Shown piece after piece: positions 20,286 to 51,066 of a DNA stretch of 51,124 nucleotides. The stretch is from a virus. Numbering within the stretch: position 1 is the stretch's first letter; the number at the start of each line of letters is the position of its first letter. The translations under genes and the position numbers were made by a program. The notes beneath the pieces were generated by a model, which was not told the origin of the DNA, did not search any database, and worked only from the letters and a program-made list of their open reading frames with translations. Location of the stretch: IMG/VR virus record IMGVR_UViG_3300027747_004319, positions 1 through 51,124 of that record. One strand, 5' to 3'.

Positions 20286-20642
20286 TTACATATTTAATGG
20301 TTTCGCCATTCTTCCACCCACCGATGTAGTTGCTCCTGCAAGTGTGTTTATTAGCTCCCCAAATAATTGCATGGCTTCTGGATTTTTCTTAAGATGAGCA
20401 AACAAAGGCGTATACATGCCTCTGGTATCTTTGTTTATTCTCTCTATGTTTAGTAGAGCTTTACGCACCTCTTCTTTACCAAATGAGTGGGGGTTGAGCG
20501 ATTCGTCAGATCCTGGCTTAACACTTCCGGTGTTACTGGCTCCATATCCTGCCAATTTAAGTCCCGAATCATTGGAGGGCTTTGCTCCCATTACTGGATT
20601 AACATCCGCTTCCATTATTCTATATAATTTACTGAATTCCAT
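20286..20642 (-). CDS. Hypothetical protein with N-terminal packaging-tag-like peptide
   Basis: 118 residues, with AAAGG well placed before the ATG. It begins MEFSKLYRIMEAD. The segment I-M-E followed by Ala fits the (L/I)-x-E cleavage rule of T4-type prohead proteases, and F-S-x-L-Y is like the T4 internal-protein targeting peptide. The rest has a Gly/Ser-rich linker and a helical C-terminal domain (VRKALLNIERINKDTRGMY, HLKKNPEAMQLFGELINTL). Function unknown; a capsid-internal protein is a hypothesis only. Confidence 0.55.
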   Translation of the reverse strand: MEFSKLYRIMEADVNPVMGAKPSNDSGLKLAGYGASNTGSVKPGSDESLNPHSFGKEEVRKALLNIERINKDTRGMYTPLFAHLKKNPEAMQLFGELINTLAGATTSVGGRMAKPLNM

Positions 20643-20667
20643 AACTTAACCTTTCTTATAATTATAT

Positions 20668-21990
20668 TTAGCAAGTTCTGAGTAAAATTTCTTGTGCCGA
20701 TGGAACACATCTCTGTAATACCAATAAATCACTGGGATTGCCGTTGTAAGGCGTTTCTTTTACAACAACACCAGGAAAGCTTCCAGCAGCTTCTTTTATG
20801 GTTTTCATTTGAGCTGTTAAGAATAGCATTCCATCTATTCTTTCCAAAAAGTCGCTTTCTCCCTTTTTGGGAAATCCGTTTTCGTCAACCTCACCAGTTT
20901 CATAAAGATACTTGACTTTAAGATCAACAAATGGAACTAAGTTTCCATCATCATCTATCATGGCTTCACTGTTGTCTGATTGAATGATTCTTACGCTAAG
21001 TTTTCCCTCAGAATAAGCTGCATCCAAACAACTAGCCAAATCCAAGCCCAAGGAGTATACTGTTCCGTCATTTCCAACAACGTTTATTAAAAAGCTTCTC
21101 TGCTTGAAATAGTCAGATATACTCTCCATTATAACTCTTCTTCTCAGAACATCTTTTTCCTCTGGGCTTCCATCTTGAAGTCTCTTGAGCTCGGGATCTT
21201 CTAGAAACTTCTCTGGGTCATCTTCTCTTAAAGCCCATTTTCCAAGATCAATTCTTCCCCATTTTTCATTGAATCTTGTTGATATTTTTATTGAGTATTT
21301 TCTTTCGTTGTAAATAAGATCTTCGCTGTTTGATCCATTGCCAACTTGAACAGCCCCCAGTAAAGCAGCCATATACTTTCTGTGAAGATCACCCTTCATT
21401 CCAAGAGTGCCCTTCAATTTTATGAAAACACTACTGAGTTCACTCATTGGTTGAAGAGCTGTGAAAACATGTTTTGTTAAAGATACCGAAGGATTGTTTT
21501 GATCCAATTCTTGTCTGATTAGCCTTCGTATCTCTTTATTAGCTTTCTCAATATTGGAATTTTGCCTAAGAAATAAAATCTGTAGATTATCCTCTACAAA
21601 CTTTCTTGGATAAGAGTCTAGCTCTGAATCTCTTATTCCATGAATACTATCCAAGAGTGTTTTAGTATCACCTTTTGCGCTATTTTTAAAATACTCCATC
21701 TTCCATGTTTCAAAATTTTCTTCTGGCTTGTTTTCTTCCTCAGGCATATCAGGAGTGACAGGTTCTTTAACTTCTTGTTCTGGAGGTTGTTGAGCTTGAG
21801 GTTGTTGAGCTTGAGGTTGTTGAGCTTGAGGTTGTTGTTCTGTTTGTTGGGGATCTTGTGGCTGTTCTGCTGGATCTGCAGCGGGAACCTGCATTCCAGA
21901 AGAAGCATTAGTTGCAGGTTGATTTGCTGCAACTTCACCTGGATCGCCAAGATCCTCATTTAACCAGTAATTCATTGTGTTAAATCTCAT
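20668..21990 (-). CDS. Large hypothetical phage protein with Gln/Pro-rich linker
   Basis: 440 residues. It opens MRFNTMNYWLNEDLGDPG, again a short aromatic stretch ending in an L-x-E site (L-N-E). Residues about 20-90 are disordered, with the unit QAQQP three times in a row. The remaining 350 residues are globular (VEDNLQILFLRQNSNIEKAN, FTALQPMSELSSVFIKLKG, AALLGAVQVGNGSN, FLTAQMKTIKEAAGSFPGVV). It overlaps the upstream gene by 11 bases. I recognise no enzyme motif. Position next to a terminase-like gene suggests head or packaging, without proof. Confidence 0.6.
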   Translation of the reverse strand: MRFNTMNYWLNEDLGDPGEVAANQPATNASSGMQVPAADPAEQPQDPQQTEQQPQAQQPQAQQPQAQQPPEQEVKEPVTPDMPEEENKPEENFETWKMEYFKNSAKGDTKTLLDSIHGIRDSELDSYPRKFVEDNLQILFLRQNSNIEKANKEIRRLIRQELDQNNPSVSLTKHVFTALQPMSELSSVFIKLKGTLGMKGDLHRKYMAALLGAVQVGNGSNSEDLIYNERKYSIKISTRFNEKWGRIDLGKWALREDDPEKFLEDPELKRLQDGSPEEKDVLRRRVIMESISDYFKQRSFLINVVGNDGTVYSLGLDLASCLDAAYSEGKLSVRIIQSDNSEAMIDDDGNLVPFVDLKVKYLYETGEVDENGFPKKGESDFLERIDGMLFLTAQMKTIKEAAGSFPGVVVKETPYNGNPSDLLVLQRCVPSAQEILLRTC

Positions 21991-23294: not shown

Positions 23295-24512
23295 ATGCCA
23301 GGCAAATTTAGTGATTACTTATCCATCAGAGAAAATAAAACCCCTGTATTATCAAAGGTTAAGCTGGCTAGGTCACCAGGACAAGAAGAGTTTCAGCCAT
23401 TTGTTATTGATAAAGAAAATCACTCAAATTTACGAGAATTAGTAAAAGCTTTTGAAAATAGTACAGAAGTTGGCGTTGGTTACACGACAATAGACAAAGA
23501 AAAAGGTGAAGTTGAACCAAAATTAAAGAAGAAAACATTATATCTTACTGGTGGTGCTGTTAGAGATCATCTAAAAGGAAAAACTCCACGTAATTATGAC
23601 CTGGCGACTGATGCAACAGCCAGTGAAATAAAAATGATACTATCAGGCTCTGGTTTCGAGGAGATTCATTCTGAATTTTCTAAGGACAAAAATTTACCAA
23701 CTAATCCAAAATCAAATAAATATTTCTTTGTAAGCAGGCTCAGCAAAAAAGGAAACGAGGCTGAATTCACAGCTGTAGTTGATAATGAAGATTTCTTTTT
23801 GGCTCCAATGTCAAAAAGTCTAAAAAGCAGAAGACTATCGCCCGAAGATTTTTCTGCCTCAAGCCTGGAGGATGACGCTTCCTATAGAGACTTTACAATT
23901 AACTCAATGTATATTCCTTTAAAAAATTCAGATGGAGATAACACAGAGCTGATAGATATTTTTGGTGGAGCTCATCATTTAAAAAATGGTCAAGTGGTCT
24001 CTGTTGGTGAGTTTGGCAAAAAGGTCAAAGATGACCCGATCACAGCCCACAGATATTTAAGAATGCAGGCAAGATATGGCAAAGGAGAAATGCCAGAAAA
24101 ACTCACAAATATCACAAGAGGAATAAATGGCTTGGACCCAGACTATAAAAAAGAATATGTCTTTGGTCTTGAGAACCCAGATATAGATTCGTCCAGATAT
24201 CTCAAGATGTATTCAAATTCTGGTCTTTTGAACACAGTTTATCCTATAGATGATTTGTCTGTTGAAGATATGCCAGAAAAAGCCTTGGGAGATAGGTTTT
24301 TAACAAGTGCTTGGTTGTTAAAAGATAAAGATATGGAGCAAACCAAGTTTGCTTTAATGTCTGCTGGTTGGGATAAACAAGAAGTAAATGATATTTTATA
24401 CTTAATTAAGGCGTATCAATCTTTTAAAAACAGATACGACACTACAGACCAAACAAGCTCAATGTGCGGTTTGCCAGCGTATAAAATAAACAAATGGAAA
24501 AACCTATACTAG
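23295..24512 (+). CDS. Poly(A) polymerase / tRNA nucleotidyltransferase-like protein
   Basis: 405 residues. I chose the ATG at 23295 because AAGGGA lies six bases before it; an in-frame ATG at 23280 would place that site inside the gene. The head domain of class II nucleotidyltransferases is clear: LYLTGGAVRDHLKGKTPRNY, then D-L-A-T-D-A, and later YRDFTINSMYIPL (the R-D-F-T-I-N motif), followed by the helical RNA-binding part (ITAHRYLRMQARYGKG). At the catalytic D-x-D the protein reads N-Y-D (residues 100-102), so one of the two expected carboxylates may be missing. The N-terminus MPGKFSDYL fits the proposed packaging tag, followed by an I-R-E site. It would add nucleotides to RNA 3' ends if active. 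Confidence 0.8.
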   Translation: MPGKFSDYLSIRENKTPVLSKVKLARSPGQEEFQPFVIDKENHSNLRELVKAFENSTEVGVGYTTIDKEKGEVEPKLKKKTLYLTGGAVRDHLKGKTPRNYDLATDATASEIKMILSGSGFEEIHSEFSKDKNLPTNPKSNKYFFVSRLSKKGNEAEFTAVVDNEDFFLAPMSKSLKSRRLSPEDFSASSLEDDASYRDFTINSMYIPLKNSDGDNTELIDIFGGAHHLKNGQVVSVGEFGKKVKDDPITAHRYLRMQARYGKGEMPEKLTNITRGINGLDPDYKKEYVFGLENPDIDSSRYLKMYSNSGLLNTVYPIDDLSVEDMPEKALGDRFLTSAWLLKDKDMEQTKFALMSAGWDKQEVNDILYLIKAYQSFKNRYDTTDQTSSMCGLPAYKINKWKNLY

Positions 24513-25342
24513 TTCAAGCAATCGGATCTCCCTTCGATTTAAATGTAAGCTCTTGTGGAAAAAGAAAGCCAAAGCTTTTTTCTTGGACTAATAGTCCACA
24601 AGATATCAAAATAAGAATAGACCACGCTTTACATGATGGCTTAAGCGATAATAATAAGTCTGGCAAATTTGGCTGGACATGTGAATCTAAAGCTATAACT
24701 CGTGGACTCTTTGATGGATTGAGAAATAATTTTACAAGATACAAAGAATCTTACTCTAAAATTTTCACTTACGATGAACAGTTGATCGAGTTAGACCCAG
24801 ACTTTTTCATCTATTGTCCTGCAGGCAGTAACGCTCCATGGACACCTGATGAAGAATATGGAATTCATGAAAAAACAAAACTTGTTTCTTTTTTGTGCAG
24901 CAATAATTCAATGACAGATGGTCATCGTTATCGTTTGTCGTGGGCTGAGAGGCTACAAGATAAGGTAGATATGTATGGTGGAGCCTGTGGAAGCAAACAA
25001 ATAGGCGGCTCGCATTGGTACCATCATCAAAGAAAAACTGAAGCAATGAACGAATATATGTTCAGCATAGCAATAGAGAATGTCAACATGGATTGCTACT
25101 ACACAGAAAAAATAACAGATTGTTTTGCAAATGGGGTGATACCAGTTTATTATGGTTCAAAAAGTATCACAAAACACTTTAACAATGATGCTATAATATT
25201 CTTGGAAGAAGACTTTGATGTAAATCAATTATCGGAAGAATTATATTATTCCAAATTAGAAGCTGTTAAAGATAATTTGAACATAGTTAGAAACATGTGT
25301 ATTTCTGATGATTTATTGTTCAAAAAAATATCTTTATTGTGA
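24494..25342 (+). CDS. Glycosyltransferase family 10 (fucosyltransferase-like)
   Basis: 282 residues. The family 10 donor-site signature is present at about 193-222: AIENVNMDCYYTEKITDCFA then NGVIPVYYGS. Upstream, RYRLSWAERLQDKVDMYGG is the usual fold entry of alpha-1,3-fucosyltransferases, which move fucose from GDP-fucose. The GDP-sugar link fits the mannose-type cupin at 22496. It overlaps the 3' end of the nucleotidyltransferase gene by 19 bases, so it is probably co-transcribed with it. It is slightly short for the family but contains the catalytic half. Confidence 0.85.
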   Translation: MEKPILVQAIGSPFDLNVSSCGKRKPKLFSWTNSPQDIKIRIDHALHDGLSDNNKSGKFGWTCESKAITRGLFDGLRNNFTRYKESYSKIFTYDEQLIELDPDFFIYCPAGSNAPWTPDEEYGIHEKTKLVSFLCSNNSMTDGHRYRLSWAERLQDKVDMYGGACGSKQIGGSHWYHHQRKTEAMNEYMFSIAIENVNMDCYYTEKITDCFANGVIPVYYGSKSITKHFNNDAIIFLEEDFDVNQLSEELYYSKLEAVKDNLNIVRNMCISDDLLFKKISLL

Positions 25343-25357
25343 AAGCGTAGATAGATT

Positions 25358-26083
25358 ATGAATAGAAAAATAACAATAGTCCACCCCTCCAGGCAAAGAA
25401 GCGATCTTTGCTATAGAATAGCTGATTTGTTTTATGGCAATTGTGTAAACAAGGACAATGTTTCTTATTATATATCTATTGATTCAAGTGATCCAACAAA
25501 AGATGAATACCTAGCTGGCAAGAAAGATTATGCCAAAATAATTGTTGGAGATGGAAACTCTTGTGTAGAGGCAGTAAATATTGGGGCTAAAGAATCAAAT
25601 TTTGAAGACATAATTGTGATAGTATCAGATGATTTTGTTTGCCAAAATGGATGGGATCAAAAAATACTGGATTTTGTAGGGGATAAGAAAAATTTTGTTT
25701 TAAAAACAAATGATGGAAGAGAGCCTTGGATTGTAACGTTTCCAGTTATGGACAAAGAATATTACAATAGATTTGGCTATGTTTACAACCCATTATATAA
25801 ACATTTATTCTGCGACACAGAAATGACACATGTTGCAGAGATTACTGATTCTCTTCTAATAGATATGTCTAATGTCATAGAGCATAAAGCAACAGAATTA
25901 ACAAAAAATGATTCTGTAAACATGAAAAACAACTCAACTTGGTGGCAGGGAGAATCTGTTTATCTACAAAGAATAAGAGAAAATTTTGGATTAAAAAAAG
26001 AAGAGATTGTTAAAACTCCATCTCATCCATCGCATATAGAATGGCTTAAGCAAAAAGGAATAAATATAAACGAACACTCATAG
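25358..26083 (+). CDS. Glycosyltransferase, GT-A/family 2-like
   Basis: 241 residues. The opening strand KITIVHPSRQR, the segment YYISIDSSDPTKDEYLAG and the acidic site IVIVSDDFVCQNGWDQKIL resemble GT-A transferases (family 2 type), where D-D marks the metal and nucleotide-sugar site. The middle has T-N-D-G-R-E-P-W-I-V-T-F-P-V-M-D-K and a closing helical part. It lies 15 bases after the family 10 gene in the same direction. The sugar transferred cannot be inferred. Confidence 0.65.
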   Translation: MNRKITIVHPSRQRSDLCYRIADLFYGNCVNKDNVSYYISIDSSDPTKDEYLAGKKDYAKIIVGDGNSCVEAVNIGAKESNFEDIIVIVSDDFVCQNGWDQKILDFVGDKKNFVLKTNDGREPWIVTFPVMDKEYYNRFGYVYNPLYKHLFCDTEMTHVAEITDSLLIDMSNVIEHKATELTKNDSVNMKNNSTWWQGESVYLQRIRENFGLKKEEIVKTPSHPSHIEWLKQKGININEHS

Positions 26084-26110
26084 TTATAATTATTTTATAA
26101 CAGATGAGTG
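26075..26110. terminator. Long hairpin across two convergent stop codons
   Basis: CACTCAT (26075-26081) pairs with ATGAGTG (26104-26110), and inside it GTTATAA (26083-26089) pairs with TTATAAC (26095-26101) around a five-base loop. The hairpin covers the ends of both converging genes. No long T-run follows on either strand, so it may act as a weak two-way terminator or an RNA end stabiliser. Confidence 0.5.
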
Positions 26111-26605
26111 GATATAAAAATCATCTTGTCTATTTACTTCTTTTATAAGAATGTATCCTCTATCGGTCAAGTATTTTCTTGAGGCATCTTTTGTGCCACA
26201 TTCTCTATAGGCATCTGTTTCAAATGTAATTACATTAAAAGTATATTTATCAAAAGGAACCTTGTACAAAGCTTTGAGGCTTATGTGAGGGGGCTCTAAA
26301 TCGATTGTGAGATAATCTATTGTTTTATTGTCTTTGAAAAACTCATTCATTTGTTTTTCATATTCAAAAGTTAAAGCATCATGACAACAAAACTTTGTGT
26401 TAGGTCTATTATCGAAATAGCTATTTGTATGATCTTCAATATCAATACACATTCCACTCCAACCAAAACCCTTGTCTAGGGCATAAGTATTCGATATAGT
26501 CTCAGACGGTCCAGCTCCAATATCTAAGAATGTGCCTTTTTTTTTGAAATTCAATGTTTCCATTACAAATACATCTTGCCCTATTTGAGACCTATAGTAA
26601 TTCAT
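26090..26605 (-). CDS. FkbM-family methyltransferase-like protein
   Basis: 171 residues, with AGGAG before the ATG. The SAM-binding motif is KGTFLDIGAGPSETISNTYA (motif I, D-I-G-A-G), followed by GWSGMCIDIEDH (motif II acid) and YLTIDLEPPH with I-S-L (where FkbM proteins have D-x-E-G). The final part NVITFETDAYRECGTKDAS and RKYLTDRGYILI matches FkbM proteins often encoded with sugar-transferase genes in phages and viruses. It would methylate a sugar hydroxyl. It forms a minus-strand pair with 26618-27445. Confidence 0.78.
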   Translation of the reverse strand: MNYYRSQIGQDVFVMETLNFKKKGTFLDIGAGPSETISNTYALDKGFGWSGMCIDIEDHTNSYFDNRPNTKFCCHDALTFEYEKQMNEFFKDNKTIDYLTIDLEPPHISLKALYKVPFDKYTFNVITFETDAYRECGTKDASRKYLTDRGYILIKEVNRQDDFYIHSSVIK

Positions 26606-26617
26606 ATTTATATTCTC

Positions 26618-27445
26618 CTAAAAAATAACAAATTGCCCATTATCCTTACATTGCGATAATTCTTTTAAATTTGCCCGATATAATACAGGTATTAAGCCGC
26701 AATTTCCTGAATGAGTTATCAAATATTTACAATTAGATATAATTCTAACTATTGACTCAAAGTTTATACTCCACTCTATTTTATTCTCAGTTGGTTTGAC
26801 ATAAGTGTTGTTAAATATCATTTCTTCAAAAAAGAATGCATTATCAAAATTTGACATAAATATATCTCTATTGCGAAGTTCATCTGTTTGTATAAGAAGT
26901 CTATATTTTTTGTTTCTTTTGTTGATATGGTCTAACCAATCATTTGGGTGCGCTAAATTAACCTCAACATGCTTATCAGTTCCTCTGTTAAAAATAGCCA
27001 TAGTGTTACTGTAATCTATGTTGTATTTTTGTTCTAAAAATTTTATTCTTTCCAAAACAAGATCAGAAGGACTAAAGTAAATGTCTTCGACCATTTTGAT
27101 TTGCTTGAAATTTAATTTTTGAAATTCTGCATGATTCGACCAGTAACCATCATGATTTCTAAGAACTCCTGATTCAAAATCTTCAGACTTAAGTTGATCT
27201 AAAGTTTCTAAATTAACCTTGTATATAAAAGGATACAGGTCTTTATCATCACTGTAATTGTGCAGGTGTTTTAAAGTATCGTTAAAAGAAACATTCTCGG
27301 GATATATTTTCATTCGCGCCAATTCATATATGGCGAAACGTACCTCATTTATGCATGAATAAAAACCGCCTGTTTTATGAGTCCCGTAAACAGTTTTGTC
27401 TTCTTTATTGTAATAAGCGTTTCTGAGAAAAATTAGTTGTTCCAT
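26618..27445 (-). CDS. Probable glycosyltransferase, fucosyltransferase-like fold (uncertain)
   Basis: 275 residues from the ATG at 27445, preceded by GGAGGAGG nine bases upstream (a TTG at 27454 is less likely). The N-terminus FLRNAYYNKEDKTVYGTHKT and the late segment NCKYLITHSGNCGLIPVLYR are like NodZ/alpha-1,6- or alpha-1,2-fucosyltransferase-type GT-B proteins, in which a C-terminal S-G-N/S-S-G segment binds GDP-sugar. The region YRLLIQTDELRNRD agrees. I do not see a full family signature. The surrounding genes support a sugar-transfer role. Confidence 0.5.
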   Translation of the reverse strand: MEQLIFLRNAYYNKEDKTVYGTHKTGGFYSCINEVRFAIYELARMKIYPENVSFNDTLKHLHNYSDDKDLYPFIYKVNLETLDQLKSEDFESGVLRNHDGYWSNHAEFQKLNFKQIKMVEDIYFSPSDLVLERIKFLEQKYNIDYSNTMAIFNRGTDKHVEVNLAHPNDWLDHINKRNKKYRLLIQTDELRNRDIFMSNFDNAFFFEEMIFNNTYVKPTENKIEWSINFESIVRIISNCKYLITHSGNCGLIPVLYRANLKELSQCKDNGQFVIF

Positions 27446-27539
27446 CACCTTCAACCTCCTCCTTGAGTTTGCGATTTCCTACAGTATATATTATTTTATA
27501 TTTAAAAATTAAATAAATATTTTTTTTATATATAATGAT

Positions 27540-28199
27540 ATGAAAACAACACTTCTTACATTTACTGATCCGAATTACGAACCAAGAAGATTAACAACTC
27601 TTTCTTTTAATAAAAAAATGGTTGATAAAGTTTGGAACGCAAACCCATCAGATTTTGATGATAATTTTAAAAAACAAAATGAATTTATATTAAATCAACG
27701 TAGAGGTTATGGCTACTGGCTTTGGAAACCATACTTAATACTAAAATACATAGAAAACCTATGTAGTGAAGATGAAATGCTTATATATTGTGATGCCGGA
27801 GATTGGTTCTCAGAAAAAATGCTTGACTTGGCTAAACTGGAAACAAAAGATTGTCTTTTTATAAGAGGTCCTTTTTTAAATTATAAATATACAAAAAAAG
27901 ATTGTTTTGTACTAATGAATTGTGATGAAGAAAAATACTGGAATTCTGGTCAAACGTATGGCGCTCTTTGTTTTTGGAGAAAAACAAAAACAACAATAGA
28001 CTTCTTAAAAGAGTGGTTTGATTATTGCAAAAATCCTAATATTTTAACTGATGCTCCCAACATTCATGGAGAAAATATACCTGGATTTATAGATCACAGA
28101 CACGATCAATCTGTTTTGACTAATTTGACCATACAACGTGAAATGTTAAGAAAAGATCAAACAACAGACAATCCTTGGAATGTAATTTATAATGATTGA
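27540..28199 (+). CDS. Glycosyltransferase-like protein with RGYGYWLWKP motif
   Basis: 219 residues. The block RRGYGYWLWKPYLILKYIEN then EDEMLIYCDAGDWF is characteristic of a group of GT-A-like proteins in capsule, LPS and giant-virus clusters, with D-A-G as the probable metal site. NSGQTYGALCFWRKT and the final HRHDQSVLTNL fit the same group. The acceptor is unknown. The next gene starts inside its last codons (8-base overlap), so the two are probably expressed together. A TATATAA box lies at the start codon. Confidence 0.65.
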   Translation: MKTTLLTFTDPNYEPRRLTTLSFNKKMVDKVWNANPSDFDDNFKKQNEFILNQRRGYGYWLWKPYLILKYIENLCSEDEMLIYCDAGDWFSEKMLDLAKLETKDCLFIRGPFLNYKYTKKDCFVLMNCDEEKYWNSGQTYGALCFWRKTKTTIDFLKEWFDYCKNPNILTDAPNIHGENIPGFIDHRHDQSVLTNLTIQREMLRKDQTTDNPWNVIYND

Positions 28200-29079
28200 T
28201 ATAAATGATGTGGATAACCCTGAGTTATATTATAATTTAAAAAAAGGCTATGAGTTTTGCTCTTCGATAGCAGATGAGACTTTATCAAAACCAACTGAAT
28301 ATCATGTTGTTTGGAGCGGAAAATTTGATCGCAAGCAGTCTCTCCCAATAAAAAGTTTTTTTGCAACACAAAATTTCAAATTAGCCAAATTAAACTTGTG
28401 GTCCAACGAAGATCTGATCAACAATAATTATTTGAAACCCTTTAAAGATTTGATCAACTTTAGAAAATGGGATCCAATCGAAGAGGCTAAAGGAACGATC
28501 CTTGAGGACTATAAAAGTTTAACAGCCACAGACGGAAAATTTTGGATCGATGGAGATATATTTAGATTGTTATGCTTGCATAAGTATGGAGGAGTCTATT
28601 TCGACATGGATGTTGTTCTGTTGAGAGATTTTTCTCCACTATTAAACCAAGAGTTTATGTACAAGTGGGCAGCAGAAAAAAACATGATTAACGGAGCTAT
28701 AATGCATCTTTTTAAAGATAGCAAATTAACAAAAGATTTACTTAATCAACTATTGAATACAGCTCCAACACCAAATAGTCATTGTTACGGCAGAGATCTA
28801 TATACTTATGTAAGGGCTCAAAATAAAAATTGGACTATATTTCCAAGCACTTTTTTTAACACAGAGTGGCAAGCAACTCCGGAAGATACAAAAGACTATC
28901 CTGGCTTGGCTGAAGGGTTTAAACCATTTCAGAAATGCAATACAACCCATCTTTTTGAAAGGGCGTTTAGTTGGCACTGGCATAACCGATGGGGTGAATC
29001 AATAGAGATGGGAAGTAAGTGGCAAATTATCGAAGAAATTATTGAAAAAAAGCTGTCCAGTATTGGATTCCATCTATAA
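28192..29079 (+). CDS. DXD-type glycosyltransferase (family 32-like)
   Basis: 295 residues. The block FWIDGDIFRLLCLHKYGGVY followed by FDMDVVLLRDF is the sugar-binding region with the D-x-D motif (D-M-D) shared by family 32 enzymes, such as OCH1-like mannosyltransferases and many bacterial capsular transferases. YHVVWSGKFDRKQSLPIKSF at the start is the usual first strand. The C-terminal H-L-F-E-R-A-F-S-W-H-W-H segment is a common closing motif. It overlaps the preceding transferase by 8 bases and is followed 16 bases later by a methyltransferase. Confidence 0.85.
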   Translation: MIDINDVDNPELYYNLKKGYEFCSSIADETLSKPTEYHVVWSGKFDRKQSLPIKSFFATQNFKLAKLNLWSNEDLINNNYLKPFKDLINFRKWDPIEEAKGTILEDYKSLTATDGKFWIDGDIFRLLCLHKYGGVYFDMDVVLLRDFSPLLNQEFMYKWAAEKNMINGAIMHLFKDSKLTKDLLNQLLNTAPTPNSHCYGRDLYTYVRAQNKNWTIFPSTFFNTEWQATPEDTKDYPGLAEGFKPFQKCNTTHLFERAFSWHWHNRWGESIEMGSKWQIIEEIIEKKLSSIGFHL

Positions 29080-29095
29080 TTAGAAGAGGTGTTTT

Positions 29096-29695
29096 ATGAA
29101 ACATATGATAGATTGTGGCACTAATTTGTTTTATGGATTGAATGCGCTATCCAACAGATTTAATTTTGATGAAACTTGGAAAATAGATTGTTTTGAGGCA
29201 AATCCTTTTGTTTACGAACAAGCGATGAATCTAATTAAAAATGGAGACATTAAAAAATATTATCCAAGATATGATTCGAAAAACTTAAATTTATTCAACA
29301 AAGCCGTTTGGGTATATGATGGATTTATTGATATGAATATAGAGGCTGACAAACTCAGTAATGTGGCTAACATATTGAATAAACCCCCAGAAAAAGATAC
29401 GGTCTATAACAGAAATTTTAAATGGTCAAAAACAAAAATTCCTTGCATTAGATTATCTGAAATAATAAAGCAGTCAAATGCTGAAAAAATTGTTGTTAAG
29501 CTTGATGTTGAGGGAGCAGAATTTGAAATTATTCAAGATCTTATCAAAGAAAATTTATTGAACAAGATTAATTTCTTTTATGTTGAGTTTCATGAAAGAT
29601 TCTTCGTAGAAGAATTAAACAAATATTCTGATATTAAAAATCAATTGATATCAGAGATTAATAAACAGGTAGAATTTTTCCAAGAATGGGATTAG
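29096..29695 (+). CDS. FkbM-family methyltransferase
   Basis: 199 residues, with AGAGG before the ATG. MIDCGTNLFYGLNAL is the SAM motif I, WKIDCFEANPFVYEQA the motif II acid, and KIVVKLDVEGAEFEIIQDLI the diagnostic FkbM segment (L-D-V-E-G-A-E). FFYVEFHERFF closes the core. FkbM proteins methylate sugars or polyketides; next to glycosyltransferases the glycan role is the natural reading. It is a full-length, typical member and is the third gene of a plus-strand trio. Confidence 0.88.
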   Translation: MKHMIDCGTNLFYGLNALSNRFNFDETWKIDCFEANPFVYEQAMNLIKNGDIKKYYPRYDSKNLNLFNKAVWVYDGFIDMNIEADKLSNVANILNKPPEKDTVYNRNFKWSKTKIPCIRLSEIIKQSNAEKIVVKLDVEGAEFEIIQDLIKENLLNKINFFYVEFHERFFVEELNKYSDIKNQLISEINKQVEFFQEWD

Positions 29696-29701
29696 TGAAA
29701 C

Positions 29702-30598: not shown

Positions 30599-30639
30599 AA
30601 AACTCTATTCTATTTTAATTGTTACTTATATATATTAGT

Positions 30640-32106: not shown

Positions 32107-32225
32107 ATGATTTCCAGGGTTTTATTAATTTAAAGAGCTGGGCATCCATGCCCAAAATTGATAATCCTAATCATCTCTACTTATATTTATCCTTCTCGTT
32201 TACATAAATTTTTTGTTTGATAAAT

Positions 32226-38873: not shown

Positions 38874-38874
38874 T

Positions 38875-41217: not shown

Positions 41218-41278
41218 AATTATAAATTATATAGTTTTTATCCGATTAATTGTCAAAAAGACTAGCCTCTGCCTGCTA

Positions 41279-42523
41279 TCATGATACATATCCAACAAAC
41301 TGAAGGCTATTAACTGATGATTTATTGTTTTTAATTTCCATCTTATAGTATCTATAAGATGCCGGGGATGTTATGTTATATTTATAAATCCCCGAATAGG
41401 ATGTGTCCGACCCAGATCTATTATCAAGCGAATTCCATGTAGAATTATCATTTGATCCATATAAAGTCCATGCTGTGAGTCTGTAGCCCCTGTTGTAGTT
41501 ATCCGCATATATTCCACTTGTAATGTTGTAATAGCTTAGAGTGACGGCAACTCCGAAATCAAGATATCCAACTCCTCCTGTTTCAAAAGGACCCCAAGCA
41601 GATCGGGAAAGATCATAATATTTGTTTAGAGAGCTTACGGAGCTACTTTGGTTAGGGAATAATCCAAAATCACTACTAATATTTGCGCAATATCTAAACC
41701 CGAGATTTGAAAAAACTCTAGCGAAACTTGACCTATGACCTGTCCCAGGTGTTTCAACAAGAACAGAGCCAAAACCATCAATACATTTGGCTGTTGGAAA
41801 CAATGTATATCCTCCATGAAGTTCACAAGGAGTACTAGGACTTTCATACCCCAAAATTTGCATTTCCCCAATCTGAAAAGCTTGTTCATTACGCAGGTCA
41901 GACACACTTCGCCCGCCTTTAGTAACTATTAATCTATAGTTTTTATAAGCCGTAGCACCAGAAACAGAATACTCTGAGTAAGAACAATTTCGGGCGAGCT
42001 TGCTTGTTGCGTTCGGAAATTTACCTTGAGATGTTCTGGCATCTACAGTTGTCCAAGTAACACCATCGTTTGTTCCAGACAAATACCAGTCTTGGGGAGT
42101 TTGGTCACTCATATCACCATATTGGTTTGTAATATCGTCAAATAGATTTCCAATAACCCCTGCTCCAAAAGCATTATACATCCTGTATTTTGTAATTACC
42201 ACAGGAAGACCAAAACTAAAATATGCCTTAGATCTTGATACATAACCAGTTGTTCCTCCTCTCATTGAGTTTTTATAAAATGAATCATAAATACTTTGGT
42301 ACGGCAAAATTCCTGTAAATAAATTATTAACATAATTTATACTTTTTGTAGTCCCATCAATTAAACTAGAGTTATTGTATCTATTTCCAGAATAAATTAT
42401 TGCTTCTGTATTATTTACATAATTATCACTAACAGAAAATTTATAGTATGACTTATGAGTAGAACTTACGTGTGTGTTATCATACATTGTTCCTCCTCCT
42501 ACTAAAATTCTTTCGGTCGGCAT
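41279..42523 (-). CDS. Protein with two discoidin (F5/8 type C)-like domains
   Basis: 414 residues, with AAAGGTG before the ATG. It starts RILVGGGTMYD, closely like the start of the discoidin part of 42533-45166 ([11 protein letters not shown]). The first domain (about 70-228) has KYRMYNAFGAG, TPQDWYLSGTNDGVTWTTVD, YKNYRLIVTKGGRS and IGEMQILGYES; the second (about 229-414) has GYLDFGVAVTLSYYNI, LTAWTLYGSNDNSTWNSLDN and YRYYKMEIKNN. Both are F5/8C-like sugar-binding beta sandwiches. It lacks the fibre N-terminus and Pro-Thr linker of its neighbours, so it may bind another fibre as a cap or be secreted (inference). Confidence 0.78.
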   Translation of the reverse strand: MPTERILVGGGTMYDNTHVSSTHKSYYKFSVSDNYVNNTEAIIYSGNRYNNSSLIDGTTKSINYVNNLFTGILPYQSIYDSFYKNSMRGGTTGYVSRSKAYFSFGLPVVITKYRMYNAFGAGVIGNLFDDITNQYGDMSDQTPQDWYLSGTNDGVTWTTVDARTSQGKFPNATSKLARNCSYSEYSVSGATAYKNYRLIVTKGGRSVSDLRNEQAFQIGEMQILGYESPSTPCELHGGYTLFPTAKCIDGFGSVLVETPGTGHRSSFARVFSNLGFRYCANISSDFGLFPNQSSSVSSLNKYYDLSRSAWGPFETGGVGYLDFGVAVTLSYYNITSGIYADNYNRGYRLTAWTLYGSNDNSTWNSLDNRSGSDTSYSGIYKYNITSPASYRYYKMEIKNNKSSVNSLQFVGYVS

Positions 42524-42532
42524 AATTCACCT

Positions 42533-45166
42533 TTATGTTAAATAACCTTGTAATTGAATATCACTAATTTTTCCTAAGAAAAAAGTAGTAGAATTAACAC
42601 CATCAGTAACGCCATATCTATTTGAGCTATCTGTAACAGATATCTTATAGTAAAAATAAGAGTCTGGTGATGCTATGGCAAAAGTTGCCGAAGAACCAAC
42701 TTCAACAAGGGTTCTGGTATCGAGCAGCGTCCATGAGTTAAATGTATTGGCTCCATATACTTTGAATGAATACTTTACCGGAGCGCCGGTAATGTTATCA
42801 AAATCAGCCCACATTTTATATGATGTTAATATTATTGGATAGTCAAATCCAAGATATCCATCTTTTGTTCTGTTTGTTGGCACCCCATTGGCACTACTTG
42901 CGACTTCAAAACTCCATTGACCTAGCTTAGCTAGATTTCCAGTTAAGCCAAGAATTGTTCCCATATTAAATACAGTACCAAAGGAATCAGAGTTTGTCAA
43001 AACACCAGAATTATTAAGATATTTAACTGTTGGTAATAATGTGTTGTATCCATGCAATGCACAAGGTGTTGTTGTGCTTTCATATCCCCAAAGCTGAATT
43101 TCACCAATTTGAGTATCATAATTACAGAGACCGAGTGTTGCTGTTGGTGTTGGAGTTTTGGTTGGTGTTAGAGTTTTAGTTGGTGTTGAAGTTTTAGTTG
43201 GTGTCGGTCCAGGCAATCTAGTTGTTGTTGTTGGTGTTGTTGTTGGTGTTGTTGTTGGTGTTGTTGTTGGTGTTGGCGCAAGGGTTTCTGTTGGATCGGG
43301 TGTTGAATCAGGTGGTGTTGGTCCCAAACATCTATAGCCATTTCTTCCCCCTGTAGAAATAACAAGTTTATATACTTTATAAGCTACAGGCGCCGGTATT
43401 GTGAATTCAGAGTAACTACTCAAACTTGGATCTGTTGATGTTGCATATGGCAATCTTGGTTGATTTGATCTGGTGTCAACTACATTCCAAGATATTTCAT
43501 CGTTACTACCATGCAGCGTCCAAGCTTGCGGAGTTTGATTACCAATATCTACATATCTGCCTTCAACACCATAATTAGCTAAAAATCCATTCCACATTCT
43601 ATACTTTGTTACTACAGTTGGAATTCTAAAATCAAACAAAAATATTGGGAAAGAATTATTACTAAAGCTATATGAATCGCTTAACACATATTGAAGAGGA
43701 AGTTCACCATTAAGAATACAGGCATTGGCGGGATTTACTACAGTATTAAAATACTGTCTGTAGTCAGGATTTATTAATATTGGTGGATTGTATTTTACTC
43801 CACCACCAACCAACGCCCTAGGCGTGCCAGGCGCTGCTGTTAGCGTTGGTGTTGCTGTTGGACCAGGTGTTTTTGTTACTGTTGGTGTGGGCGTTACTGT
43901 TGGTCTGAGTGTTGCAGTCGGTCTAGGTGTTGCTGTTGGACCCGGCGTTTTGGTTGCCGTCACCGTTGGTGTTGGACCAGGTGTTTTAGTTAATGTTGGT
44001 GTTGGACCAGGTGTTTTAGTTAATGTTGGTGTTGGACCAGGTGTTTTAGTTAATGTTGGTGTTGGACCAGGTGTTTTAGTTAATGTTGGTGTTGGACCAG
44101 GTGTTTTAGTTAATGTTGGTGTTGCCGTGGGTGTTGCTGTTGGTCCAAGTGTAGCTGTGGGTGTTGCTGTTGGTCCAAGTGTAGCTGTGGGTGTTGCTGT
44201 TGGATAATAACAAACATCTATATTTGCTGTAAATGATCCGCTATTATCACCTCTTACATTATCGTTTGTTGCAAGGTAAAGTCTACCTGCTCCGACAGCA
44301 AAAGATTCAAAAGAAGACCCAGCACAAAACGGTTGACCGCTTAACCCTATTTTGGCAATAATTGCCTCATGTCTACATGGGCTTATAACATTGTCGATAT
44401 TGTATAAAGAGTTTGGTAACTGGGCATCCGTTAGTCCATCCGGATCAGAATTATAGTTCGGGCTGTTCATGAACGAATTTACTATTCCGGTTGCATTTAT
44501 TTTTAAGTAACCAGAAACATCAATTTCACTATCTTGCCAGGGTATAGTAGGATCAATAATAAACGATTTTTGGCAATAAGGAGTTGATGTTGGTGTTGGT
44601 GATATTGTGGTAGGACAACAAGAACAATTGCATATAGGCTTGGGTTTTGTACACTCTACCAAACTATCAATTGCAAGCTTGAGCCCTGTACCTTTTTCTA
44701 CTCTTATTACAACAGTATTGTTGCCATCTACTATATCGCAAGCATAGTTGTAGTTTTCGTTGTATGGAACAAGATCTTTTGATCTTTTGTTCCATTCTTC
44801 AAGGTTATTTTGGAAGTAAAATCTGACATCTTTTGATACCGGGCAAGATAATCCACAAAGATCAAAGTGTCCGAATTTGTTTGGAATTTGATCGAGAGAA
44901 CCAGCGCCATAGCAATCTTCCCAAGATATAAATATCGTATTGACACCTGGTGTTGGCTCTGGCGTTGGCTCTGGCGTTGGCTCTGGCGTTGTGAGCGTAC
45001 AACAAGACACGTAATCGAGATCGTTCCAACTTTTAGTTCCATTGCCGATTTTTAATCTTCCTGTGTTTATCTCAAACCCAGGTTCACCCAAAGCTAAAAT
45101 CGGATTAGCATCATACCACTCTTGAGAAGTTCCATTTCTTAATTGTATTTGCTTGAATATTGTCAT
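42533..45166 (-). CDS. Tail adhesin: fibre N-terminus, LecA-like lectin, Pro-Thr linkers, discoidin-like domains
   Basis: 877 residues. 1-55: phage fibre N-terminal domain; 72-195: Cys domain nearly identical to that of 38875-41217; about 201-320: LecA (PA-I)-like galactose-lectin pattern ([61 protein letters not shown]); 321-446: Pro-Thr stalk with [10 protein letters not shown] repeats; 447-877: two discoidin-like domains. A second Pro-Thr stretch (about 615-679) lies inside the first discoidin domain, flanked by Cys613 and Cys681. It is the most complex adhesin here and probably binds sugars by two unrelated folds. Confidence 0.8.
43981..44100 (-). repeat. Four perfect 30-base tandem repeats in an adhesin linker
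   Basis: Four exact copies of a 30-base unit beginning gtgttttagttaatgttggt encode [10 protein letters not shown], with a fifth partial copy to 44124. The absence of any mismatch suggests recent amplification, in contrast to the drifted repeats at 2041-2280. Confidence 0.93.
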
Positions 45167-45180: not shown

Positions 45181-45867
45181 TTAATTGTCAAAAGACTTAA
45201 GTTTAGCTTCTACTTGTTTGTGGGCTATTTCAATCTGTTTATACCTTGTTAATAATCTATCTTTGGCTATTCTATCGTTGGTGGCATCAATTTGAGTTTT
45301 AAGTAAGTTTAATTCACCCAACTTTTTATTTAAATCCTCCATCACATCGACATATTTTAAATCTCTTTCCGAAAGCCAATTGATGGAGAGTTTATCCTTT
45401 ATTCCATCTTTTAATTCGATGTAAACGAAATCACCTTCTCTTTTTACAAAGAGTCCTTTTTTTTGTTCTGTTCCTTCTTTGTTTGTCCAAACATGATTCT
45501 TTTTTGGCTCAACGTATTTACCTCCACCAAGACTAGATCCGGAATCATCAAAAGAAATCGGACCATTTTTATTTTTTTTCATTGCTTGTTTTAAAACTGC
45601 AGCAGCACCAAGACCCAAATTAGTCAATAGACCAAAAACACTTTCTTCACATTTAAACTCGGGATGCTCAGCTTCTAAATATTCTTTGAATGTTTTTCTT
45701 TTTTTGTTTGGTAGCCCTTTATGCTTAGTAGAAGCAAAATCTTTTGCATCTTTTTTGTTGATATTATCTGCAACTTTTTTAATTTTTGGACTCAAACATT
45801 CGCCTGTTTTTTGACATTTACGAACTAATCCGAAAAATCTTTGTTGAGATTTACTTTTACTGGGCAT
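45181..45867 (-). CDS. DUF3008-like phage protein with internal FKEYL tag-like motif
   Basis: 228 residues, with AAAGGA before the ATG. The N-terminus [20 protein letters not shown] and [20 protein letters not shown] match the DUF3008 pattern (basic, S-K-x-Q-Q-R-F...[10 protein letters not shown]), a family seen in bacteria and phages without known role. Residues 58-67 read [10 protein letters not shown], like the tag motif. The rest has a Gly/Asp stretch, a small beta barrel ([20 protein letters not shown]) and a C-terminal coiled coil. It may be a head-internal or DNA-binding protein (inference). Confidence 0.7.
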
Positions 45868-45936: not shown

Positions 45937-46323
45937 ATGAAATCATTCAAATTATTCTCAGAGAAAAAAGACAACGATCTTGCAAAAAATGATATTCATA
46001 AAATAATAGAATATAGCAAAAAATTACAAGAAATCATCAAAACCAACATAGAATTAGAAGATTGGGTTAAAGCTAAATTAACCCATGCCGAAGACTATCT
46101 TAATACAGTATATGATTATTTGATGTTTTATAAGCAAGATAATAAAAACGAAAACTCAAAAATGGCTGTGGGAGACCTAAAAAGTATATTGTATAAGGCT
46201 ATAGAAATAGAAAAGCTTTTAAATAAAAAAGATATAAAAGATTGGGTTAAGGCTAAATTAAACTTGGCTGGTGAGTATATGGATGATATTTTCCACCACT
46301 TAGACTATAATAAAAACAAATGA
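45937..46323 (+). CDS. Internally duplicated helical phage protein with tag-like N-terminus
   Basis: 128 residues made of two copies of one unit: LEDWVKAKLTHAEDYLNTVY (about 41-60) and IKDWVKAKLNLAGEYMDDIF (about 100-119). Each is preceded by an I-x-x-x-x-K-x-L-x-x-I/L helix. D-W-V-K-A-K-L is conserved in T4-like phages, as I remember, without known function. The start MKSFKLFSEKKDND is of the tag type (F-K-x-F-S-E). The next gene starts in its stop codon (ATGA), so it is coupled to the HAD phosphatase. Confidence 0.65.
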   Translation: MKSFKLFSEKKDNDLAKNDIHKIIEYSKKLQEIIKTNIELEDWVKAKLTHAEDYLNTVYDYLMFYKQDNKNENSKMAVGDLKSILYKAIEIEKLLNKKDIKDWVKAKLNLAGEYMDDIFHHLDYNKNK

Positions 46324-48174: not shown

Positions 48175-48207
48175 GTTTCATCTTCGACGCTTGGTACATT
48201 TGTACTA

Positions 48208-51066
48208 TTAAATAAAAAATAAATCAAGGTATTCTTTGAAAGAGACATTTTCATCCATTGCTTTAGCGGCGGCGTTAGCTATAAGCCTGTTGATCTCACT
48301 ATCAATTTCTTGCATTTTCTTTTGTGCATCAATGATCTTTTGTATTGTTTCTTCATCAACCTCTTTTTCTTGATATTCTTTTCTGTATCTTTGAATAAGC
48401 TCGGCTAACTTTCTCTTTTTCTGAACAATTACAAAAAGCTCTGTGTCTAAACCCTTAGCTATTGTGTAGGTTATATTTACTGGGTGCTCTGTGTTTATTC
48501 GGTAGATTCTTCCCTCGCTTTGTTCAGCAGACTCAGGAGTCCAGTCAAAATCGTTTATTATCATGTTTTGACTGGCGTTTGGAAAGCTTATTCCAGTTCC
48601 GCCCATCTTCATACTCATAACCAAAGCTTTGGCATTTGGGTCATTGGTAAAAACTTCTTTGACTTTATTTCTTTCCGCTTTTTTGGTTAAAGATAAATAA
48701 GTAATAACTTTGAATTTTGGATCAAGATCTTGTAATTTTTTAGATAGCTTTTCGAATATTTCACTTCCTGCTTTTACAAAGTTTGTAAAGATAACAACTT
48801 TGCTGGCTGCGTAATTGTTGGCGGGTTTGTCTAAATTTCTTTTTATTGTCTCAAAAGCCTTATTGACTGTGTAATCCACCTTCATATTAGCTAAAACTTC
48901 TCTACTGGCGATTAATTCACTTATAGCCAAATCTGGATCTTTATATCCTTTGAGCTTTTCTTTTAACTTCTTATGAAAATCTTCTTCGTGTATATCAGTT
49001 GAAGCAGCATCTATGCTTAAATTTGGCATCTCTCTTAAATCTTCTTTGGTGCGCCTCACATAAACGCCAGAGAGATTGAGCCACTTGTTTAGTTTTTCTG
49101 CAGCTCTTATTCTGTCCTCAAAACTTCCTTCTGTGTAAGCCCCTCTATAGCCACCAGGAACCATACCCGCAAAATCTCTTTTGAACTTGCCGTCTTGTAT
49201 GTCTCCAAGAGGATGTCCGACAATCTTCAATTGATTTTTTACGTCAGAAGGTCTGTTTGCACTTATTGTTGCGCTTGCGCCCCATTTATACGGAATATTT
49301 TTTGTTGCTTCTTCAATGTTTTGACTTCTTTTTGCTGTTTGGTGTTTTAGCTTGTGTAGTTCATCAAATATAACTATTGAATAGTTAGCGTTCTTGGTTG
49401 AATTGATTACATTTTGAAGATTCTTGCCACTTGAGAAATTGTCGTAATATAAAACAGTCCAGCGTTTTGGATTTGTGCCATCCTTGGATACGTCAGCGTT
49501 TTCTCCAACAACATCTTTGATTTCTTCTACCCATTGATTTTGAACTGCCTTTAAAGTTATCACAAGTGTTTTTGAATTAGATCCAACATCTTGCATCCTC
49601 AACTCGGCAGCAGAAATCATCTGCACCGTTTTGCCCACCCCAGTGGCATCACCAAGTATTGCATGATTTCTTCCATACAAAAAGGCTATGCCATCTTTTT
49701 GCTCTTTATAAAGCTCGAATTTAGATTCAGGCAATCTTGAGTCTATCTTTTCTTTAAAGTCTGCGTCTACTTTTCCTTCTTGATCAGCTCTCTTGACTCC
49801 ACCATTTTTCAGCTTATTGTCTAATATTGCTCTAAGATCTTCAACATGATAGCCAAACCTTTTTAATATTTGCCCAAACGTAGCATACTGTTTGAAATTA
49901 CCAGAAACTACATAAGAAAAGTTTTTATCATCCCATCTATAAGATGGAAATGTGTATTGAATCAACTCCTTTAGAAATGCTTTTTGATCCTGAGAAGCTT
50001 CTCTGTATGGAACGCTTATTGTCATAACATCATCAACGCCGCCTCTTCTATCTGCGAAAGATATTATCGGTTTACTGGTTTTTATTTGCTCTGATTTCTT
50101 TTCAAAAGAAATTTCTTTTTGACTCTCCCCAGAGAATAATTCATTTTCATCTACAAATTTATCTAAATCGGTAACATCTATTCCGCCACCTACTAATTTA
50201 CTTTTAACAGCATCGTATAAATCTTTGCTATCTGCTGCTATCAAAAACTTAGGAGGTCTTGTTGAACCATCAAAACTATACCCTCTTGGAACAAGGCTGG
50301 CGCTTCTTGCAGAATCTAATATTGACTTGCTTTGATCAAAAGAAACATTTAGTTGTATTGCTATTTTTTTACCAAACCTGGTGTCTTGTATTCCGACAAC
50401 AACCAGCTGTTTCTTTTCAGAAATAGGAGTTTTTTCTTCAGAGCCAACAGGAGATCCCGAGACCTTGGTTGATATACTCATTTCTCCCGAAATCAGCTTT
50501 ACAACATCGTCTATCACCTCTGGGTGAATGTAATATGTATTTAATTGATTTCTATCTGTGTTAAAAAACTTAAACACAGGATACTTCATCGCACCATAGT
50601 TATCCCTCACCTTGACCAGCTTTTTCTTTTCAACAATAAGATCAGAAATTTTTGTCATTAGCTTTTTACTAATTCCACCTGGAACATAAACTTTAATTTT
50701 ACCCCAGACTCTTTCTGCATCTGTGTGGATTACTATTTCTTGATGATCATCCATTTTTAAACTAGATTTGATATCATTTTCCACAGCCTTCTTTATATCT
50801 TCATAATTTGAAATTTGTGTATTTTTATAACGAGAAAGAATTGCAAGCATTCTGCTAGCTGTAGCCAATGGTATTGAATCATTGTGAAAATTTGGATCGC
50901 TGACAATTGCTTTGTATGCTCCAAAGTCTACTTTGTTAAAACCAGTAAAGTCATCTACAACTGGAGCGCCTCTTTCAAACATATCATGAAACGTAGTTTT
51001 TAAGAGATCTACACCCGGTCCAGACACAAGATTTTCTTTATTTTCTAAGAATGATGAAAATTTCAT
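48208..51066 (-). CDS. SNF2-family helicase/translocase with tag-like ends
   Basis: 952 residues. Motif I is AILGDATGVGKTVQM (471-480), motif II VIFDELHKLKH (DELH 568-571), motif III GASATISANRP (598-600), then the second lobe (VVIFTNFVKAGSEIFEKL, ALVMSMKMGGTGISFPNASQ) and motif VI EQSEGRIYRI (849-857). This is the SNF2-like superfamily 2 type that translocates on double-stranded DNA. The first 450 residues hold three or more alpha/beta modules; the part at 360-405 (FLKELIQYTFPSYRWDDKNF) is like the HARP region of SMARCAL1 proteins. The start MKFSSFLENKE and the end VSFKEYLDLFF both look like the tag motif. It may remodel phage or host DNA. Confidence 0.85.
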   Translation of the reverse strand: MKFSSFLENKENLVSGPGVDLLKTTFHDMFERGAPVVDDFTGFNKVDFGAYKAIVSDPNFHNDSIPLATASRMLAILSRYKNTQISNYEDIKKAVENDIKSSLKMDDHQEIVIHTDAERVWGKIKVYVPGGISKKLMTKISDLIVEKKKLVKVRDNYGAMKYPVFKFFNTDRNQLNTYYIHPEVIDDVVKLISGEMSISTKVSGSPVGSEEKTPISEKKQLVVVGIQDTRFGKKIAIQLNVSFDQSKSILDSARSASLVPRGYSFDGSTRPPKFLIAADSKDLYDAVKSKLVGGGIDVTDLDKFVDENELFSGESQKEISFEKKSEQIKTSKPIISFADRRGGVDDVMTISVPYREASQDQKAFLKELIQYTFPSYRWDDKNFSYVVSGNFKQYATFGQILKRFGYHVEDLRAILDNKLKNGGVKRADQEGKVDADFKEKIDSRLPESKFELYKEQKDGIAFLYGRNHAILGDATGVGKTVQMISAAELRMQDVGSNSKTLVITLKAVQNQWVEEIKDVVGENADVSKDGTNPKRWTVLYYDNFSSGKNLQNVINSTKNANYSIVIFDELHKLKHQTAKRSQNIEEATKNIPYKWGASATISANRPSDVKNQLKIVGHPLGDIQDGKFKRDFAGMVPGGYRGAYTEGSFEDRIRAAEKLNKWLNLSGVYVRRTKEDLREMPNLSIDAASTDIHEEDFHKKLKEKLKGYKDPDLAISELIASREVLANMKVDYTVNKAFETIKRNLDKPANNYAASKVVIFTNFVKAGSEIFEKLSKKLQDLDPKFKVITYLSLTKKAERNKVKEVFTNDPNAKALVMSMKMGGTGISFPNASQNMIINDFDWTPESAEQSEGRIYRINTEHPVNITYTIAKGLDTELFVIVQKKRKLAELIQRYRKEYQEKEVDEETIQKIIDAQKKMQEIDSEINRLIANAAAKAMDENVSFKEYLDLFFI

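Follow-up and report, generated by a model that had tools for sequence, protein, structure and literature searches.

A short N-terminal peptide shared by unrelated giant-phage proteins resembles the capsid-targeting sequence of T4

Several otherwise unrelated proteins encoded on a 51-kb virus record (IMGVR_UViG_3300027747_004319; its 51,124 nucleotides are referred to below as the window) begin with a short aromatic peptide that recurs at protein starts in giant-phage relatives, with the consensus M-K-T-F-K-E-W-L-E-x-x-E. We propose, at a probability of roughly 0.8, that this peptide is a capsid-targeting sequence (CTS) of the T4 type, borne by an unusually large set of cargo proteins, most of which have no assigned function. 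The signal is N-terminal, is spread over unrelated proteins, is followed by an excess of (L/I)-x-E sites, occurs in a virus that also encodes head genes, and matches the starts of T4 ipI, ipII and ipIII. Two papers (PMC9026906, PMC3012670) mention further proteins in T4's relatives that bear CTS-like sequences, and suggest that T4-like phages may use the CTS for varied proteins. In the literature covered, which included few preprints and subscription papers, no short CTS used across a giant-phage genome was found. For many giant-phage genes no function is known, and the majority of such phages have been seen only in metagenomes; a readable packaging tag would flag proteins probably delivered at time zero and yield, for each contig, a list of candidates for injection.

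The window's baseplate protein shares 46% identity with that of the 595-kb uncultured phage LR756511.1. Of 266 related places in IMG/VR, the best 80 show 59–100% identity to it, on contigs of up to 533 kb. No tRNA genes were found in the window. A search with its helicase recovered IMGVR_UViG_3300027741_000025 (144,363 bases, here G015), which contains the whole window at 48257-99386 with 99.8% identity; we therefore take the two to be the same virus, and regard the remainder of G015 as suitable for seeking head genes. Six long relatives were compared (G001, G002, G004, G007, G009 and LR756511); G001, a near-duplicate of G002, was omitted from the de novo motif search and retained in the other counts. 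Genes were called with a simple script of our own that covers 90–92% of each relative and 97% of the window, and that may have misplaced some starts.

The pattern F..[YFW][LIVM] fell within residues 2-17 of 41/438 proteins in G002, 35/357 in G001, 35/847 in G009, 35/357 in G007, 18/524 in G004, 53/1061 in LR756511 and 4/47 in the window, against 0.8–1.6% of internal 16-mers from the same seven sets, and was 3.4 to 12 times commoner N-terminally than internally in the six relatives. A wider pattern, [FY]..[YFW][LIVM], was in significant excess in all seven sets (Fisher p between 0.034, for the window, and 1.5e-14, for G007), and its N-terminal counts exceeded all 200 shuffles in the six relatives. 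By this bare pattern the window is weak taken alone, its 4/47 equaling the maximum of 200 shuffles. We also scored N-termini with a matrix trained on giant-phage N-termini only, taking the 99% level as a pass and, for the window, 920 internal segments of its own proteins as the null. The training set held orthologues of the window proteins at 19805, 35360, 45937 and 48208; those of 23280 and 20668 were outside it, as was T4. Six of the window's 47 N-termini passed (0.5 expected), as did 31 to 60 in each of five large records (about 4 to 11 by chance) and 25 of 164 in G015 (1.6 expected), where six of the passing N-termini lie in the window and some of those outside it also have training-set orthologues. 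With one protein per cluster, each at least 90 aa long, a score of at least 11 was reached at 92 of 15,880 N-terminal positions and at 32 of 259,262 internal ones. The genome-wide enrichment that the preliminary description of this DNA had put forward as a check is thus present in the six relatives and G015, and in the relatives also against shuffled N-termini.

Run without any preset pattern on 3,212 N-termini of five relatives, a de novo search returned [TKS]-[FL]-[KR]-[ED]-[WFL]-[LIV]-E-E with a log likelihood ratio of 857, compared with 467 for internal segments and 226 for shuffled sequences (150 random starts for the real set, 80 for each control); the fitted model is broad and covers 41% of sequences. 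The DNA pattern for MKTFNEW was found in 27 stretches of a viral collection; prokaryote genomes (257 Gb) gave eight, half of them deep within longer frames.

Kinship among the carriers, by which small genes would have been duplicated together with their starts and then diverged, is very improbable as the source of this likeness. The 194 proteins with the pattern in residues 2-13 formed 147 clusters, between the bodies of which BLAST gave no link at 1e-4; that a short peptide heads otherwise unrelated proteins is a feature of CTS membership. Carriers also match different domains (SNF2, NUDIX, AAA_33 kinase, C39 peptidase, PolyA_pol), which suggests unrelated folds for these few. Some matches do look like paralogues by their starts (G015 2057 and 2931), and adjacent tagged pairs are in excess in LR756511 (p 0.0085), although no such excess was seen in the other four genomes tested. 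In several small tagged proteins from different genomes the peptide is followed by a Tyr-Pro-rich stretch (GLYPLGYGGIGLYPP and similar; L099 18787-19230, L185 2604-2846 and others).

The consensus given above derives from 119 representatives, which are the 147 cluster representatives minus 20 with F beyond residue 6 and eight with a hydrophobic stretch behind the motif. F stands mostly at residue 4, and Glu is enriched at F+2, +5, +6 and +8. An (L/I)-x-E site lies behind the motif in 55 of the 119, compared with 30.2 (standard deviation 4.1) after shuffling; when 14 residues were tried at the last place of the site, E alone was strongly raised (z 6.1), with D at 2.6, Q at 2.4, K at −1.8 and R at −2.3. 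The site is an excess over the set and is not present in every carrier. A further set of viral proteins, picked only for starting with MKTFNEW or MKTFKEW, gave the same result: the site occurred in 19 of 35 against 8.3 (standard deviation 2.2), and none of 2000 shuffles was as high. These 35 remained from 46 distinct peptides after removal of three from G001/G002 and of those shorter than 40 aa, and a few of them resemble each other or training-set proteins.

Placed at the start codon, the motif could instead be a nucleic-acid signal for translation initiation or regulation, with the peptide likeness incidental. GAA is preferred over GAG even in GC-rich genomes, and GC content at third codon positions (GC3) within the motif lies slightly below the genome's in five of six cases. 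Codon use makes such a signal the least probable of the alternatives that we weighed: motif GC3 runs from 0.25 to 0.67 (0.26 in G002, 0.67 in G007) across genomes of 36% to 56% GC, so that synonymous codons broadly track genome composition and it is on the peptide that selection acts. In some proteins the F falls at residue 13 or later, which also disfavors a start-codon signal, though wrong start calls could explain part of this.

The closest known counterpart of the peptide is the CTS of the T4 internal proteins (IPs). It is N-terminal, spans 10-19 residues, ends in (I/L)-x-E, and reads MKTFKEF in IPI and MKTYQEFIAE in IPII and IPIII (work of Mullaney and Black, 1996, summarized in PMC9026906). 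Incorporation needs no more than the first 10 residues of IPIII; mutants of this protein place targeting chiefly at residues 4 and 7 and processing at 8 and 10, and Asp at residue 10 stops processing while leaving targeting intact (PMC9026906). These same positions make up the motif in giant phages, and the two aromatic-rich columns of the de novo motif coincide with positions 4 and 7 of the T4 CTS. When the giant-phage matrix was applied to 260 T4 open reading frames (ORFs; our own calls), ipI, ipII and ipIII ranked 2, 3 and 5 behind gp61.1 (MKTFKEFIKE), ipIII with a score of 6.2 that to one decimal is tied with the sixth; the chance of three given genes falling in the top five of 260 is about 10 in 2.9 million by simple arithmetic. 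The T4-like capsid-targeting reading of the preliminary description draws support from this ranking, T4 being a control outside the training set.

The other control phages in the motif test were phiKZ, Cr30, KVP40 and P-SSM2. By matrix, 16/375 N-termini passed in KVP40 (3.8 expected), 11/306 in P-SSM2 (3.1), 8/270 in Cr30 (2.7) and 7/353 in phiKZ (3.5). By the wider pattern there was no excess in T4 (5/260), phiKZ (7/353, shuffle mean 7.8) or Cr30 (9/270), KVP40 was borderline (13/375, p 0.044, inside the shuffles), and the cyanophage P-SSM2 was enriched (19/306, p 3e-5).

The gp21-like prohead protease invoked in the original targeting proposal is encoded by the same virus: G015 has a Peptidase_S77 match at 9540-9956 (95.9 bits against a cut-off of 27) that aligns with T4 gp21 across the conserved GEL-x-HP and SSRG-x-G. 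Searching the window gave no S77 match, as expected because it is a fragment. Above the cut-off, the family was present in 6 of 14 IMG/VR relatives, in LR756511 and in G015 (one of five further records), hence in 8 of the 20 giant records, of which many are fragments, and in the T4-like controls T4, KVP40, P-SSM2, S-PM2 (used for the protease search only) and Cr30; phiKZ gave no match. A Gp23-type capsid protein was matched in all eight records searched, in G004 as a short piece only; the capsid gene of G015 was identified by gene-order alignment. The G015 head genes stand in the order capsid (6981-8414), a scaffold-like gene encoding 298 aa, and protease (9357-10052). The scaffold-like protein holds 16 (L/I)-x-E sites compared with 6.9 (standard deviation 2.3) after shuffling, and 12–16 in four relatives; for its G002 orthologue no PHROG match names a scaffold. 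The motif is concentrated around these genes, occurring in 13 of 31 G015 genes within 15 kb of the protease versus 12 of 133 elsewhere (p 4e-5) and, in G001, in 11 of 37 versus 21 of 320 (p 9e-5). The putative tag thus shares with the T4 CTS four of the features tested, namely N-terminal place, sequence likeness, (L/I)-x-E excess and an S77 protease, together with aromatics at 4 and 7 and a Gp23 capsid; the scaffold-like gene is a candidate counterpart of the gp22-type core.

The head-gene evidence bears on whether the peptide addresses some place other than the capsid, for instance a membrane, a compartment for replication or a phage nucleus. The peptide is short and amphipathic, one of its carriers is a helicase and a Toprim protein has a similar start, all of which would suit such an address. 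It is nevertheless unlikely, leaving unexplained the (L/I)-x-E excess, the high ranks of T4 ipI–III and, in the virus to which the window belongs, the grouping of carriers around the capsid and protease genes. PhiKZ, a nucleus-forming phage, is moreover not enriched by pattern, though by matrix it had the 7 passes against 3.5 expected noted above.

Some observations weigh against a capsid address. The S77 protease was not found in 12 of the 20 giant records, which are mostly fragments but include G004 at 340 kb. The motif itself is absent from the capsid, protease and scaffold-like proteins. Clustering near the protease is not independent in G015 and G001, because they are related; it is borderline in G002 (5/32 vs 26/406, p 0.065) and was not seen in G009 (1/38), G007 (3/38) or LR756511 (3/43). 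An (L/I)-x-E site is missing from the tested stretch in 64 of the 119 motif N-termini. By matrix, T4 taken over all its ORFs shows no enrichment (3/260 pass, 2.6 expected), so that its evidence lies only in the ranking, where ipII and ipIII score modestly (p 0.009 and 0.019). The Toprim protein, a DegT aminotransferase and a lipoprotein-like leader (G015 100410) are probably false matches. Finally, the F, W/F/Y and L/I/V/M columns of the 119 representatives were imposed by the search pattern, the others being free; the two tests that escape this bias are the T4 ranking and the de novo search.

Some differences from known systems are also apparent. The giant-phage peptide mostly has Phe4 and Trp7, where T4 has Tyr4 and Phe7, and E is often at residue 12. 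T4 has three named IPs, whereas 31–60 N-termini pass per large giant-phage record; enzymes are among the carriers, and internal or C-terminal copies may exist. For SPN3US and phiKZ, PMC5694885 and PMC10052503 describe many head-packaged ejection proteins with propeptides that the prohead protease removes and for which CTS-like roles were proposed; in SPN3US these mostly span 111–254 residues, with two of 20 and 24. The conserved part here is only about 10–17 residues, in contrast to the SPN3US propeptides, and phiKZ differs in having neither an S77 match nor N-terminal enrichment by pattern. Long propeptides (at least 100 residues) were not encountered in two aligned families, which are conserved over residues 1 to about 13 and then variable. 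T4 Alt, described in PMC9026906 as a packaged and injected ADP-ribosyltransferase with propeptides at both ends, is a precedent for a packaged enzyme and for two-end processing, the C-terminal copies in giant phages being suggestive only. As to sequence, window and relatives stand apart from this enzyme: the N-terminal peptide of Alt is unlike MKTFKEW.

If the peptide is a CTS, it would be made at the front of many unrelated phage proteins, and its aromatics 4 and 7 (in M-K-T-F-K-E-W-L) would bind the scaffold core during prohead formation, drawing each protein into the head. The gp21-like protease would then cut after the (L/I)-x-E just behind the peptide and free the cargo, to be ejected together with the DNA at the next infection. 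The cargo (in the window a nucleotidyltransferase and an SNF2-type helicase, and in relatives proteins with NUDIX, kinase and RNA-repair domains) might act early in take-over or counter-defense. A trick of three small T4 proteins would thereby be applied to a far larger cargo, enzymes included, and sequence alone could predict which proteins these giant phages probably carry and inject into bacteria.

Family scans covered 108 of the 119 carriers, those under 80 aa and one other being left out. In Pfam, 28 families were matched, 25 of them listed with one member each, so at most 28 of the 108 carriers have a match; SNF2 helicase, NUDIX, AAA_33 kinase, HAD_SAK_1, tRNA_lig_CPD, C39 peptidase and ParB are among the matches listed, HAD_SAK_1 and tRNA_lig_CPD being tied to RNA repair by name. 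The PHROG scan matched 46 families (25 listed), and a defense-gene library matched 17 families with one member each and no clear theme. Together with the nucleotidyltransferase the cargo leans toward RNA repair, in numbers too small for a claim. T4 IPI is an injected restriction inhibitor (PMC9026906) and IPIII is required to infect one E. coli strain (PMC9391042); by analogy with these roles, early counter-defense is a likely function for the giant-phage cargo.

In the window, all six aromatic starts named in the preliminary description are present in its proteins, as are the four (L/I)-x-E sites that it quoted (I-M-E/A, L-N-E/D, I-R-E/N, I-F-E/S). Five of the six N-termini fit the motif and one, at 20286-20642, does not. 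The SNF2-type helicase (48208-51066; PF00176, PF00271, phrog_62) begins with MKFSSFLENKEN (51031-51066, minus strand; opening MKFSSFLENKE), which scores 16.7, a value that none of the 920 null segments reaches. Its orthologues (42–69% identity) start MKSIKFLIENNE, MKFSDWILIKE, MKFSNWFFLRE and, in G002, MSLFKNYVESQE, and a fifth (L299) has MINFKNW in frame directly upstream of the match; the sequences of these starts vary and the pattern is kept. The RNA nucleotidyltransferase, with a PolyA_pol head (PF01743, E 4.8e-19) and extending to 24512, starts MPGKFSDYLSIRE (23295-23333, plus strand; score 13.4, again reached by 0 of 920), with another in-frame ATG 15 bases upstream (ORF 23280). In all six sequences aligned the E of (I/Y/L/F)-x-E is invariant; behind it come a linker that differs in length and the conserved core, an arrangement that is the anatomy of a putative cleavable leader.

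The best-scoring N-terminus of the window (17.3) is MKRKSFFEWIKKQEIFE (35954-36004, minus strand), which heads 35360-36004, a 214-aa protein of unassigned function whose orthologue in G001/G002 starts MKLFSEWIVDNHPE. Directly downstream of this gene lies an untagged ORF, 34531-35370, that by eye resembles a patatin-like lipase (GEGARGS, GISSGS), an arrangement kept in G001/G002. MKSFKLFSE (45937-45963, plus strand; score 10.9, p 0.003) opens 45937-46323, also of unassigned function (128 aa); MLNFKTFLENLE is the G001/G002 orthologue, which in G002 is separated from the prohead protease by about 3.4 kb. The earlier account missed MRHKFFDYVNR (20249-20281, minus strand; score 10.1, p 0.005) at the start of 19805-20281 (158 aa). 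This family has the pattern in seven of seven genomes with F5 invariant, and no (L/I)-x-E was found close behind the window's peptide. The AlphaFold model of this protein has a mean predicted local distance difference test (pLDDT) of 75 with a short, low-confidence helix at residues 3-9, and gave no PDB match at E ≤0.001 (best 0.042). The sixth passing N-terminus, MRFNTMNYWLNE (21955-21990, minus strand; score 7.5, p 0.0098), is atypical and belongs to 20668-21990 (440 aa), for which the structure model is poor (pLDDT 44). Homologues start MKINTLNWFNEE, MSNHALEEWLIED, MSNHAIWEWMK and MTDRINLEDWLDQ, with W9 invariant in five of five aligned and a P/Q/A-rich stretch after it; the G009 homologue starts differently.

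The ORF at 20286-20642 (minus strand), with the start MEFSKLYRIMEA (MEFSKLYRIME), scored −4.4 at its N-terminus; BLAST found no homologue of it in the six relatives, and it was rejected as a member. A start resembling it, MNFYKMMKVLE, occurs at G015 129010.

Copies of the peptide away from N-termini also occur. The 10-residue internal peptide and the helicase-closing SFKEYLDLFF that were reported earlier both lie where described. The former (45667-45696, minus strand; residues 58-67 of 45181-45867) has the highest score in the window, 21.6, and is preceded by a DUF3008-like N-terminus whose match is under the Pfam cut-off (19.2 vs 24 bits); phrog_26015 matches residues 1-63 at E 4e-23, and the protein has no BLAST homologue in the six relatives. 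A further copy, SFNEWLKIE (34469-34495, minus strand; score 15.8), at residues 14-22 of a mechanically called 58-aa ORF (34358-34534), had been overlooked. At the helicase C-terminus, SFKEYLDLFFI (48211-48243, minus strand; score 11.2) is a possible second copy: SF-x-x-YL stands near the end in G002, L296 and L298, a looser SSFIERVMEF in L297, and L299 is without it.

For this helicase end, a sliding-clamp-binding tail has nearly even odds of being the right explanation instead of a second targeting copy. The bacterial clamp motif is QL(S/D)LF, which YLDLF resembles, and C-terminal clamp peptides are known in T4. The orthologue in L296 ends SFKDYLEFFNI with FF kept, whereas G002 ends SFSDYLKILELGFNADT and L298 SFSSYLEKLQEIRDALMPLE, keeping SF-x-x-YL and losing FF. 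Proteins with tags at both ends are in slight excess (4 of 120 N-positive clusters versus 14 of 2061, p 0.015), which speaks for a second copy, though all four come from G002 and one is the helicase. As a general rule C-terminal copies were rejected, their excess being marginal (9/34,936 vs 32/259,262 internal at score 11, p 0.048; p 0.09 at score 9 and 0.21 at score 13), and internal and C-terminal copies are not established as working signals. We offer only tentatively, at somewhat less than even odds, the broader idea of a genome-wide address code, in which about 25–60 proteins per genome would share one portable, cleavable tag, N-terminal and sometimes internal (after a DUF3008-like unit) or C-terminal, that loads an enzyme kit entering before phage gene expression.

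A second, diverged S77-like ORF is present besides the prohead protease in LR756511 (242621-242989, over the cut-off) and G009 (C1:238352-238600, under it). Short ORFs (frames of 88–149 aa) match Gp23 pieces despite a full copy at G009:C1 58177, 351378, 453543 and 517826, W01:C1 588176 and G007:C1 108409, and a piece covering approximately profile positions 296-350 recurs in other genomes, weakly there (E 0.004 to 0.008). In T4 gp61.1 (L195 18966-19130), MKTFKEFIKE is followed by NPENISIGTTSGAVVNKGP, by eye like the gp23 stretch NATNIAAGQTSGAVTQIGP, so that a CTS-like start stands on a capsid-like piece. Elsewhere in the window, several large proteins in 1-3224 and 36429-45166 contain long Thr-Pro repeats, one of which also occurs near 109.8 kb in G015, and 24494-33062 holds a run of ORFs that by eye resemble glycosyl- or methyltransferases.

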